Shown here: piece by piece, positions 27,254 to 31,724 of the stretch
Numbering within the stretch: position 1 is the first letter of the stretch
Layout: the number at the start of each line of letters is the position of its first letter
Assembly: GCA_009692285.1 (NCBI GenBank)
Contig: SHZO01000005.1
Coordinates: forward strand, 1-35,719
Direction: 5' to 3'
Length of the DNA stretch: 35,719 bases
From: Gammaproteobacteria bacterium
Lineage (GTDB): Bacteria; Pseudomonadota; Gammaproteobacteria; Steroidobacterales; Steroidobacteraceae
Translations under genes and position numbers: made by a program
The notes under the pieces: generated by a model
Told to the model about the DNA's origin: nothing
What the model saw: the letters and a program-made list of their open reading frames with translations, nothing else
Database searches by the model: none

Positions 27254-28228
27254 ATGCATACTTCTATTCGCCACGACTGGCACACCGAAGAGGTAGAAGC
27301 GCTCTTCGCGTTACCTTTTCAGGAACTAATTTTTCAGGCTCAAAGCGTACATCGCGAATATCAAACCCCCAATACCATCCAAATGAGCACACTGCTTTCG
27401 GTTAAAACTGGCGCCTGCCCTGAGGACTGCGCTTATTGCCCACAAAGCATTCGCTACGACACAGGCTTAAATAACGAAGCGCTCATGGCTGTTGAAGATG
27501 TCCGAGCACGTGCGCAGGCAGCGCGTGAAGCTGGTGCTACTCGCTTTTGTATGGGTGCTGCTTGGCGCTCCCCTAAGAAACGCGATATGGAAGTGATGGT
27601 TGCGATGATTAGTGAGGTCCGCATACTAGGTATGGAGACTTGCGCAACGTTGGGAATGCTCACCCGCGAGCAAGCTCAACAGCTAAGAGCCGCGGGTCTG
27701 GATTACTACAACCACAACATCGACACTTCTCCTGAATTTTACGAAGACATTATAAGTACACGCAACTTCCAAGATCGTCTTGATACCCTAGATGCAGTGC
27801 GCGAAGCGGGTATGAATGTATGCTGTGGAGGTATTGTGGGTATGGGGGAAACTGTGCGCGATCGTGCACGTATGCTTCAAGTCTTAGCAAATCTCGCACA
27901 ACATCCGGAAAGTGTTCCGATTAATCAATTGGTGCCTGTCCCTGGCACTCCTTTAGCAAATCGTGCGGCCATTGATCCTTTTGATTTTATTCGCACGATA
28001 GCGGTTGCGCGTTTAATAATGCCACTTGCCGCTGTGCGCCTATCCGCGGGGCGTGAACAAATGTCCGATGAACTACAGGCTCTTGCATTTCTTGCTGGTG
28101 CTAATTCTATTTTTTATGGTGAAAAACTGCTCACTACAGGCAATCCTGATGTTCAACATGATCGCCAATTGTTTTCTAGGCTAGGCATCCATACTGCTGC
28201 CGGAGGGGTCGGTGCGCTGCACACCTGA
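27254..28228 (+). CDS. bioB: Biotin synthase
   Basis: Radical SAM enzyme that inserts sulfur into dethiobiotin to form biotin, the last step. The 324 residues hold the cluster motif '[10 protein letters not shown]' (Cys55, Cys59, Cys62), '[13 protein letters not shown]', 'CATLGML', '[13 protein letters not shown]' and '[12 protein letters not shown]', with Cys ligands and Arg ('[10 protein letters not shown]') for the [2Fe-2S] sulfur donor. It leads the bioB-F-H-C-D operon, with a probable BirA site upstream. The ATG is nine bases after a modest GGA. Confidence 0.97.
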
Positions 28229-29360
28229 GGCGGTACAAACGGCTCTACAAAAAATAGATGCCCGTCACTTAAGACGTCAGCGCGAGCCTGCTTTAGATCA
28301 CTGTGTAAATTTTTGCAGCAACGACTATTTAAATCTTTCAACACACCCACAGATTGGGGCCGCAATGGCCGAATGTGCGCTGCTAACGGGCGTAGGTGCT
28401 GGCGCCTCACATCTAGTCAGTGGTCACGGTATTGAGCACGAAGCGCTCGAGTGTGAACTAGCCATCTTTACTAAACGCGAACGTACATTGGTATTCTCAA
28501 GTGGCTATATGGCCAACTTAGGAGTCATAGGCGCCTTAGCTCAACGCAACGATTTAATCTTAGAAGATCGTCTTAATCATGCTTCTTTAATTGATGCAGG
28601 CTTACTGGCTCGTACTCGAAATTTTGAAAGATATCCTCATGGAGATCATGCAGTCGCTGGCGCAAAGCTTTCTACACATTTACTTGCACACCCTGCATCA
28701 AGTGCTCTCTTAATAACTGATGCCGTATTTAGTATGGATGGTGATATTGCGCCGTTGGCTGCTTTGGCTACACACGCTCTTGCCCATCAAGCATGGCTAA
28801 TTGTTGATGATGCACATGGATTTGGAGTGCTGGGAAAAAATGGAGGTGGGTGCTGTGAGCTTTTAGGACTCAATTCACGCGAGGTACCAGTATTAATTGG
28901 TACATTAGGCAAAGCCTTTGGAACCTTTGGGGCTTTTGTTGCTGGTGATGCTGATTTAATTGAGCTCCTAATGCAGCGCGCACGTAGCTACATTTATACA
29001 ACTGCGCTACCTCCACCGGTAGCAGCTGCCACTCGTGTCGCACTACGATTGATTCAAGAAGAGCCTCAGCGACGCTTTCATTTACACGATCTAATCGATA
29101 CATTTAAAATAGGCGCAGCTCGGCGTGGTCTTCCGCTCATGGAATCTAATACAGCAATTCAGCCTATCATTTTAGGATCATCACAAAAAGCAGTACAAGC
29201 CAGCGCACGCTTACGTGATGCAGGTTATAGAGTTGCCGCTATACGCCCACCTACAGTCCCTCAAGATAGCGCACGACTACGCGTCACGCTTAGCGCAGGG
29301 CACACTCACAAACAAGTAGAGGGTCTATTAAATGCGCTTGTAGTAACGCTTGGCATGTAA
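28212..29360 (+). CDS. bioF: 8-amino-7-oxononanoate synthase
   Basis: PLP enzyme that joins pimeloyl-ACP (or -CoA) with alanine. The 382 residues show '[14 protein letters not shown]', '[19 protein letters not shown]', '[14 protein letters not shown]', '[12 protein letters not shown]' with the cofactor-binding Asp and His (200, 202), and the Schiff-base Lys234 in '[11 protein letters not shown]'. The GTG start at 28212 overlaps the end of bioB by 17 bp and has GGAGG five bases upstream, inside bioB, so the start is well supported. Confidence 0.96.
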
Positions 29361-29410
29361 TAGCAATAAACTTTATTAAAATTACTTCTCACAAAAAACC
29401 TGCTCTAGTC

Positions 29411-30139
29411 TTGCTACATGGTTGGGGACTAAACCTTAAAGTTTTCGATACTTTATGCGAGCACCTAGATGATTTTAATATCACGTGCTTAGATTTGCCA
29501 GGACATGGTCGCGCTGCGGTGCCTAGTATATTGGAACAAAAAAATTGGAATATCTCTACCGTAGCTAAGATTTTACTTGACCAAATGCCACCTAAAGCAA
29601 TTGTACTTGGCTGGTCTTTGGGCGCTACAATTGCTTTAGAAATTGCTAAAAACGCGGCGCATAGAGTAAATTCTCTAGTTTTAGTAAGTGCAACACCACG
29701 CTTTACTATAGACGATGATTGGCCGTATGGAACTACAGAATCGTTGTTAAATGTTTTTGCACATAATCTAATGAAAAACCACCTCCATAGCATCAATAAG
29801 TTTTTAGAGCTTCAAGTACGAGGTAGTATTAGAGCCGCTGAGAATTTACTGCAATTAAAACTCGCGCTACAAGCGCAAGGAGCGTGCTCCCCGACTGTTC
29901 TACGTAATTCTCTGCAATTATTGTACTGCACTGATCTACGCGTACATTTAAAAAATATCAAGACTCCCACTTTAGTTATTGCAGGACAATATGATCGCGT
30001 CACGCATCCAATGGCCTGCGCAAGCTTAGCTAAAATGCTGCCAAATGCTCGTTATCTTGAAATTCGTAGGGGTGGGCACGTCCCATTTCTTTCTCACCCT
30101 GTTGAATTTTGTACTGCACTAAAAGAGTTTACCTTATGA
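29411..30139 (+). CDS. bioH: Pimeloyl-ACP methyl ester esterase (start uncertain)
   Basis: Alpha/beta hydrolase that removes the methyl group from pimeloyl-ACP methyl ester after chain building. It shows the oxyanion strand 'LLHGWGLN', the nucleophile elbow 'LGWSLGATIAL', the catalytic Asp in 'GQYDRVTHP' and the His in 'RGGHVPF'. From the first standard start, TTG at 29411, it has 242 residues but lacks the first beta strand. That strand is encoded just upstream in frame (INFIKITSHKKPALV from 29366) with no ATG, GTG or TTG before it back to the stop at 29291. True translation may begin at the ATA at 29366 or the ATT at 29375, or a sequence error may be present. It ends overlapping bioC by 4 bp. 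Confidence 0.85.
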   Translation: MLHGWGLNLKVFDTLCEHLDDFNITCLDLPGHGRAAVPSILEQKNWNISTVAKILLDQMPPKAIVLGWSLGATIALEIAKNAAHRVNSLVLVSATPRFTIDDDWPYGTTESLLNVFAHNLMKNHLHSINKFLELQVRGSIRAAENLLQLKLALQAQGACSPTVLRNSLQLLYCTDLRVHLKNIKTPTLVIAGQYDRVTHPMACASLAKMLPNARYLEIRRGGHVPFLSHPVEFCTALKEFTL

Positions 30140-31035
30140 GAAATCTTTTTGATCATCGTGCAATCGCGCGTTCTTTTGGTCGTGCAAGTAAAAGCTATGA
30201 TGCCGCTGCTGAAATACAAAGAATAGCGCGCACAGAGTTGCTTGAAAGATTAAATAATTTTAAATTAAAACCCGAGAAGATTTTAGATTTAGGTGCAGGT
30301 ACTGGCGCAGCCAGTATGGCGCTGAAGCGTAGATATCCAAATGCTAATGTGATTGCACTTGATTTTGCGCCGGCCATGTTAGTAACTTCAGGGCAGCATT
30401 TAAATTGGCGCGCTCGTTTGCTCAGTGGGCGCTTCAGTCCGTCTTTCCTCCGCGTCGCTGGAACCGCCCATAAACTTCCACTTAAAGAGTCTTGTGTGGA
30501 TTTAATTTTTAGCAACTTAATGCTGCAATGGTGCGATAATTTAGATGACGTGCTAATTGAAATAAGGCGCGTTTTAGCCCCAGGCGGAGTTTTTATATTT
30601 AGTACTTTTGGACCTTCTACTCTTAAAGAATTGCGCATTGCTTTTGCCCTAGTCGATACCCACCCTCACGTTAATACATTTGTTGATATGCATGATTTGG
30701 GCGGCGCGCTTGGTCGTGCGGGATTTCAAGAGCCGGTATTAGATATTGATCGACACCTGCAGAAGTACCCTGATGTAATGACCTTATTGCGTGAACTTAA
30801 AGCTATCGGGGCCGGTAACGCTATGCAGGGTCGATCTCGTGGTCTTACTGGCCGTGTCCGATTTGCCCAAATGCAAAATGAGTACACTGCGTTGTCAGAC
30901 TCCCCTTTAAGTATTCCAGTAACTTGGGATATTATTTATGCGAGTAGCTTCTCTCCGCAGAGCCCTAAATTTGTCGCTGCTACAGGGGCAACAGAGATTA
31001 AGGTCCCTTTGAACCAAATAGGGTGGCGCAGGTGA
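30136..31035 (+). CDS. bioC: Malonyl-ACP O-methyltransferase
   Basis: SAM-dependent methyltransferase that caps the malonyl carboxyl so fatty-acid enzymes can build the pimeloyl chain. The 299 residues begin 'MRNLFDHRAIARSFGRAS', the usual BioC N-terminus, followed by motif I 'ILDLGAGTGAAS' (Asp51-Gly57), 'VIALDFAPAML', 'DLIFSNLMLQWCDN' and 'LAPGGVFIFSTFGPSTLKEL'. The ATG at 30136 overlaps the bioH stop as ATGA; the frame is open nine codons earlier (30109), but that lies inside bioH and lacks family likeness. Together with bioH it makes the E. coli-type BioC/BioH route to pimelate. Confidence 0.95.
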   Translation: MRNLFDHRAIARSFGRASKSYDAAAEIQRIARTELLERLNNFKLKPEKILDLGAGTGAASMALKRRYPNANVIALDFAPAMLVTSGQHLNWRARLLSGRFSPSFLRVAGTAHKLPLKESCVDLIFSNLMLQWCDNLDDVLIEIRRVLAPGGVFIFSTFGPSTLKELRIAFALVDTHPHVNTFVDMHDLGGALGRAGFQEPVLDIDRHLQKYPDVMTLLRELKAIGAGNAMQGRSRGLTGRVRFAQMQNEYTALSDSPLSIPVTWDIIYASSFSPQSPKFVAATGATEIKVPLNQIGWRR

Positions 31036-31724
31036 GAGGGGTCTTCATAGCAGGCACGGACACAAACGTGGGCAAAACTTGGGTTGCCTGCCAGCTATTA
31101 GTCAACGCCCGCACCGTCGGGATAAATGTGGCGGCGATGAAACCCATAGCTAGTGGTAGTTTTGGTTTTAAAAATGATGATGCAGTAGCACTCATAAACG
31201 CCGCCGAAAGCGAAGAGCCGTACGAACTTATTAACCCCTACAACTTCACACTCCCTATTTCACCTCATTTAGCAGCGCAAGAAGCGGGCCAGACCATTGA
31301 CCTCCAAGTCATTTGCAGCGCAGCTACCAAACTAGAAAAAAACGGTGCCTGGCTGGTTGTAGAAGGAGCGGGTGGTTGGCTGACCCCCATTAGCCTCCAT
31401 CACACCATGGCTGATGTTGCACGAATCCTGAATCTGCCTGTGATCCTAGTAGTAGGGATGCGGTTAGGCTGTTTAAGTCATGCCTTACTAAGTGCCGCAG
31501 CTATTACCACATCCGGCTTACGCCTTGCCGGCTGGGTGGCCAATTCATTACCACGAAATCAAACTAATAAAATGTTGAAAGAATCTGAAAATATAGCCAC
31601 TTTAAGTACTCTCTTAGCGGAACCGCCGTTAGCTTACTTTGCACAGGATGATTCGAGCGCTACTACTCAGCATCAAGCCGCTACGGCCATCGCTCGCCTA
31701 CTGGGTAATAATAAAAATAGGTAG
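31032..31724 (+). CDS. bioD: Dethiobiotin synthetase
   Basis: ATP-dependent closure of the ureido ring to make dethiobiotin. It has 230 residues with the P-loop 'GTDTNVGKTWVA' (Lys15), 'MKPIASG' with the conserved Lys, 'VVEGAGGWLTPI', and 'GMRLGCLSHALLSAAAI', and a nucleotide-specificity motif near 'WVANSLP'. The GTG at 31032 overlaps the bioC stop as GTGA and has AGGG eight bases upstream; the GTG at 31023 is too close to that site. It closes the bioBFHCD operon. bioA, needed between bioF and bioD steps, is not in the window. Confidence 0.94.
   Translation: MRGVFIAGTDTNVGKTWVACQLLVNARTVGINVAAMKPIASGSFGFKNDDAVALINAAESEEPYELINPYNFTLPISPHLAAQEAGQTIDLQVICSAATKLEKNGAWLVVEGAGGWLTPISLHHTMADVARILNLPVILVVGMRLGCLSHALLSAAAITTSGLRLAGWVANSLPRNQTNKMLKESENIATLSTLLAEPPLAYFAQDDSSATTQHQAATAIARLLGNNKNR

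Follow-up and report, generated by a model that had tools for sequence, protein, structure and literature searches.

Described bacterial starts comparable to the one reported here include the AUA codons of infC, ccpN and citZ in S. aureus, where, according to excerpts of PMC13009471, the tested AUA and AUU starts reached about 10% of the level of AUG and that of ccpN up to 30% in rich medium. In E. coli infC begins with ATT, in Streptomyces with ATC (PMC5472188), and the same source, in the sections drawn on here, describes near-cognate starts as repressed by IF3 and puts the number of experimentally characterised noncanonical starts at very few. In E. coli flgA, a change of AUG to AUA was predicted to lower translation more than 100-fold, the strains being non-motile (PMC10044804). 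Concerning the gene of interest, little BioH is required, an E. coli cell having 158 molecules, and where the operon encodes bioH its coupling to bioF has been proposed (PMC5438404). The gene can be replaced by bioG or bioK (PMC3494674), and BioH also by other hydrolases (PMC5438404), while some esterases of the BioH step, such as BioG, proved toxic on production in E. coli and cleaved short intermediates (PMC3494674). Among the titles and abstract openings of the literature matches listed, there was no paper about a bioH start.

The window, i.e. the whole stretch of 35,719 nucleotides analysed, carries a biotin operon of the order bioB-bioF-bioH-bioC-bioD on the forward strand, consisting of the biotin synthase gene bioB (27254..28228; TIGR00433, 404.6 bits against a cut-off of 225), bioF (28212..29360; TIGR00858, 429 bits against 426.45), which ends in the TAA at 29358-29360 behind an in-frame ATG at 29355, then bioH, bioC (30136..31035; TIGR02072, 213.2 bits against 184.95) and bioD (31032..31724; TIGR00347, 170.8 bits against 83.3). 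Judged by its family score and conserved residues, the third gene is BioH, a member of the pimeloyl-ACP methyl ester esterase family. Counted from the ATA at 29366, its reading frame (29366..30139, forward strand) encodes 257 amino acids up to the TGA at 30137-30139 and matches TIGR01738 with 213.3 bits, the curated cut-off being 206.95. In the alignment of 55 sequences including that of the window, Ser84, Asp210, His238, G19 and W20 are invariant and H18 is nearly so. The residues S84, D210 and H238 are those which we take to be the Ser-Asp-His catalytic triad of BioH. Apart from its beginning, the gene is thus intact, with 257 codons free of stops, the catalytic residues present and a family score above the cut-off. 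It should be mentioned that the G+C content of bioH (29366-30139), 40.1%, is the lowest of the five bio genes, the values for bioB, bioF, bioC and bioD being 45-50%.

The beginning of bioH is unusual. Between the in-frame TAG at 29291..29293 and the first canonical start of the frame, the TTG at 29411..29413, there are 39 codons with no ATG, GTG, TTG or CTG among them, as the preliminary description of this DNA had stated. This in itself is not rare, as 9% of the random open stretches of the source genome likewise lack all four codons over such a length; what is noteworthy is that the conserved part of BioH starts four codons upstream of the first usable start, and that all 55 relatives have a usable start further upstream. 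The PALV codons (29399..29410), the first of which is aligned with position 1 of the PF00561 profile, precede the TTG, which itself lies only two codons before the conserved motif HGW, so that the frame contains no ATG, GTG or TTG before conserved coding sequence. Upstream of the TTG, the frame runs from GTA (29357) through ATA (29360), GCA, ATA (29366), AAC, TTT, ATT (29375), AAA and ATT (29381) to ACT, TCT, CAC, AAA, AAA, CCT, GCT, CTA and GTC. Four of these codons are candidate starts: the ATA at 29360..29362, sharing one base with the bioF stop (TAATA) and located 19 codons before HGW; the ATA at 29366..29368, 17 codons before it; and, as weaker candidates, the ATT at 29375..29377 (14 codons, a distance used by one of the 55 relatives) and the ATT at 29381..29383 (12 codons). 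The first and the last of them are additional to those proposed previously. The coding potential of the 16 codons before the TTG gave a log-odds value of 0.6, too weak to decide.

The relatives used for comparison were gathered from three sources—40 whole genomes (39 relatives besides the one containing the window), a search for bioF in the same genus (24 genomes including that of the window) and a named genome collection, from which the best 80 of 594 bioF matches were taken. A BioH match at E<=1e-20 was obtained at 56 loci and the start region was readable in 55 of them, the remaining one (L019), cut by a contig end, being excluded. These 55 comprise 12 loci from the whole-genome set, ten of them from the same genus, and 43 from the best 80 of the 594 bioF loci. 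One of them, a Cellvibrionales record (L060:1907-3472, forward strand), was counted but left outside the alignment; its BioH-like frame has about 522 codons and may represent a fusion with another gene. In 55/55 relatives a canonical start lies six or more codons before HGW, at 6-27 codons in 54 and at 44 codons in one (L017), where it overlaps the bioF stop; none of the 55 thus shares the situation seen in the window, where the sole canonical start lies two codons before HGW. With the start of each relative chosen by a rule (within 5-27 codons, ATG was preferred and, after that, the greatest distance), so that the distances are guesses, the commonest one is 17 codons (14/55), corresponding to the ATA at 29366, and 19 codons, corresponding to the ATA at 29360, is found in four. 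This comparison, which the preliminary description had recommended, supports its proposal of the ATA at 29366, or of a neighbouring codon, as a candidate start. Among the ten BioH genes of the same genus, six start 9 codons before HGW and the others 8, 7, 24 and 44 codons before it; as this N-terminus is mostly short, the ATT at 29381, the nearest to it, stays a candidate.

Concerning how far BioH-like sequence reaches upstream, a position profile was derived from 32 relatives and scored against 20,000 random translations of the same genome. The residues PALVLL before HGW, four of which lie upstream of the TTG, scored 15.4 (leave-one-out median 14.3), a value reached by 0/20,000 random translations. 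The preceding residues NFIKITSHKK scored -7.0, the leave-one-out median being 12.0 and the minimum -15.9 (P = 0.16 against random translations, 0.22 against shuffles). Since some true relatives also score low over these ten positions, the low score does not exclude their translation. The earlier view of INFIKITSHKKPALV as the normal N-terminal strand of BioH is thus supported for PALVLL, but not for the ten residues before it, which match no better than chance; six of the ten same-genus BioH genes start only 9 codons before HGW. An AlphaFold model of the protein read from the ATA at 29366 (mean pLDDT 95.7, pTM 0.93) has strands at residues 4-6 and 13-17, its first ten residues being the least sure (mean pLDDT 73).

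The junction with bioF differs from those of the relatives as well. It reads ATG TAA TAG CA ATA AAC, the ATG being in the bioF frame; the ATA at 29360 overlaps the bioF TAA by one base and that at 29366 starts five bases behind it. Of 20 bioF loci of the same genus that were read, including that of the window, the next start overlaps the bioF stop in 19/19 others (ATGA or GTGA, read by eye), the window alone having no such overlap. The restart after bioF therefore looks inherited. Within the window the four-base overlap is kept at the junctions bioH-bioC (ATGA, 30136-30139) and bioC-bioD (GTGA, 31032-31035), and between predicted neighbours in 340 kb sampled from the genome, TAATG was found 6 times and ATGA 23 times. 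The TAATA at 29358-29362 could derive from a TAATG, but the ATA at 29366 could just as well have been the original start, and a single sequence does not tell which. A search for the bioF-bioH junction in viral contigs gave 0 matches.

With regard to ribosome binding, the sequence preceding each ATA pairs with the anti-Shine-Dalgarno sequence at -1.5 kcal/mol, random internal sites having a median of -1.6. The medians are -3.0 kcal/mol for 169 ATG genes of this genome, each represented by its first canonical ATG as predicted, possibly not the true start, and -4.25 kcal/mol for bioH of 54 relatives. By pairing energy there is thus no clear Shine-Dalgarno site at either ATA, let alone one as strong as that of infC. 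It should be noted, however, that one in four ATG genes pairs no better than -0.9, and the missing site is therefore no proof against initiation. The infC gene for IF3, which has in common with bioH that no ATG, GTG or TTG occurs at its apparent start, offers the comparison: in 18/18 genomes of the same genus with a match over the family cut-off (L169-L186), its frame begins with ATC (17) or ATT (1) behind GGAGG, one codon past an in-frame stop. These are the features of a near-cognate start that is apparently maintained; bioH, having neither GGAGG nor a start conserved in the genus, is unlike it. In the genome under study infC was not found, but rplT is also missing, so that the infC cluster probably belongs to the unassembled part; a lowered start fidelity due to loss of IF3 was considered and dropped, as nothing follows from the missing gene.

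Based on the above results, our tentative reading, to which we assign a probability of about 0.43, is that bioH has lost its ATG and is translated by weak, bioF-coupled initiation. Of the isoleucine codons just after bioF that could serve as a near-cognate start, the ATA at 29366 would be the likeliest and the ATA at 29360 the next. The lineage would have lost the bioH ATG together with the stop/start overlap seen in its relatives, and ribosomes that have just finished bioF would restart at a near-cognate codon, the ATA at 29366 being preferred to that at 29360 and both to the ATT at 29375 or 29381. The output of BioH would be reduced, and a low yield would presumably suffice because the cell needs very little biotin. 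We infer here both that the base sequence is correct and that initiation takes place at such a codon. The reading is favoured by the lack of a canonical start before the TTG at 29411, by the upstream canonical start of 55/55 relatives and the stop/start overlap after bioF in 19/19 other same-genus loci, by the position of the ATA at 29366 at the commonest distance of the relatives and by the otherwise intact gene, as well as by the existence of AUA starts elsewhere (PMC13009471) and the small amount of BioH required (PMC5438404), as reported in the portions of these sources cited. It is weakened by the lack of clear Shine-Dalgarno pairing at either ATA, by the absence of the ATA from all relatives examined, by the ten residues after the ATA at 29366, which are unlike BioH (P = 0.16) and modelled with moderate confidence only (mean pLDDT 73), and by the AUA of E. 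coli flgA, predicted to be more than 100-fold weaker (PMC10044804).

The best surviving alternative, doubtful but serious, is that the contig contains an error of sequencing or assembly, or an allele rare in the assembled population, the living cells carrying an ordinary bioH start absent from the contig. Each of the two ATA codons is one base away from ATG, and the source genome, that of an uncultured bacterium, is a draft of 96 contigs, 83.35% complete. The frequency of missing starts was estimated from the window and 20 stretches of the same genome, together 340,182 bases with 266 predicted genes, 256 of them non-edge. In 66/256 non-edge genes, the first ATG, GTG or TTG comes after 8 or more codons that are none of these. 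All of these 66 were compared with Pfam, any lead of more than 40 codons being trimmed to 40, and three had no match. When the best Pfam stretch was compared by eye with the first canonical start, it began upstream of that start only in bioH. A further case, spotted by eye, is an EamA-type transporter gene on contig 70 of the genome (L162:12915-13820, forward strand) with no in-frame ATG, GTG or TTG before its first membrane segment, whereas a canonical start is present in 20/20 same-genus relatives readable there, one further match being a fragment. A CTG in its lead overlaps the end of the gene upstream, and an ATG is present in another frame; the frame may have been shifted, either genuinely or through the assembly, or the gene may be another one with a rare start. 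A second gene lacking its start in the same draft speaks for error, but with its CTG this gene, too, could have a rare start instead. Start defects are thus rare in this genome, about 2 in 256 sampled genes with bioH being one of them, and not unique to bioH. Their rarity argues against error, as do the other four bio genes, which all exceed their family cut-offs.

The second serious alternative, unlikely in our judgement, accepts the loss of the start and of the Shine-Dalgarno site as true and regards bioH as being on its way out, with too little BioH made and either another esterase taking over or biotin being taken up. Leaving the window aside, bioF is followed by bioH in 10 of the 19 same-genus loci and by another gene in 9, so that, with a non-bioH gene at this place in 9/20 loci, bioH is often absent from the operon in the genus, which agrees with such a loss. 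By eye, the nine other genes (within L119-L138) are bioC-like or photolyase-like. Replacement of bioH by bioG or bioK (PMC3494674) or by other hydrolases (PMC5438404), known from the parts of these articles referred to above, points in the same direction, as do the lack of a clear Shine-Dalgarno site and the low G+C of bioH (40.1% against 45-50% in the remaining bio genes). On the other side, no second BioH-like protein was found at E<=1e-8 in this incomplete genome, and the 257 codons without a stop together with the catalytic residues mean that any loss would be very recent.

A deliberate restriction of bioH, by which an ATA start restrained by IF3 and read only by ribosomes finishing bioF would prevent early cleavage of intermediates, seems very improbable. 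Under this reading the organism may accept such starts at other genes as well, the EamA gene also having only a near-cognate codon in its lead. The idea that a rare start limits the BioH level had been put forward in the preliminary description together with the remark that excess BioH can cleave intermediates early, for which the toxicity and cleavage described for BioG, in the excerpt cited of PMC3494674, are the nearest support met. The present results do not show such a limitation: a clear Shine-Dalgarno site is lacking, an assembly error is possible and the ATA is shared by no relative examined, so that there is no sign of selection for it.

Translation from the TTG at 29411, BioH being simply shorter, is very improbable. 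The TTG is the first canonical start in frame, and the shortest relatives start 6-7 codons before HGW. Such a start would, as had been anticipated, shorten the protein; in the model, it would drop the first strand and three of the five residues of strand 13-17, which leads into HGW. The loss of the conserved PALV and the start further upstream in 55/55 relatives make it unlikely; moreover, the TTG lies 50 bases behind the bioF stop, and its upstream duplex energy of +2.2 provides no Shine-Dalgarno site. Finally, a BioF-BioH fusion by -1 frameshifting in the overlap 29294-29360, through which bioH stays open in the -1 frame relative to bioF, was rejected as extremely improbable, the bioF frame containing no X XXY YYZ heptamer in this overlap and there being separate genes with overlapping stop and start, none of them fused, in all 19 other same-genus loci read.

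Taken together, weak initiation at an ATA near the bioF stop is most likely, with assembly error and recent silencing as serious rivals, and the case may be graded as ordinary to mildly interesting. Its significance comes from the reliance of start prediction on ATG, GTG and TTG. If real, it would be a near-cognate start in a vitamin pathway, dependent on restart after the upstream gene and having no clear Shine-Dalgarno site; should it prove to be an error, it would show the need to check reads before rare starts are named in draft genomes.

In comparison with known systems, the gene shares the TIGR01738 family score, the catalytic triad and the gene order of the operon with known operon-encoded BioH, and differs from the operon-encoded bioH of the relatives examined in having neither a canonical start in the usual range nor a stop/start overlap with bioF. 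It resembles flgA of the heat-evolved E. coli BM28 in that AUA replaces AUG in one lineage, although there, as far as the cited part of the report goes, the change probably means loss of function, the strains being non-motile (PMC10044804). The genes citZ (in the lineage of S. aureus NCTC 8325) and ccpN are metabolic or regulatory genes with AUA, and that of citZ is conserved in strains of one lineage (PMC13009471). The S. aureus starts were tested with reporters, and an extended Shine-Dalgarno sequence was predicted for infC, cvfC1 and ccpN in the section of that report used here (PMC13009471). If real, the start of bioH adds to the near-cognate starts already known in a few other genes and represents no new kind of system.
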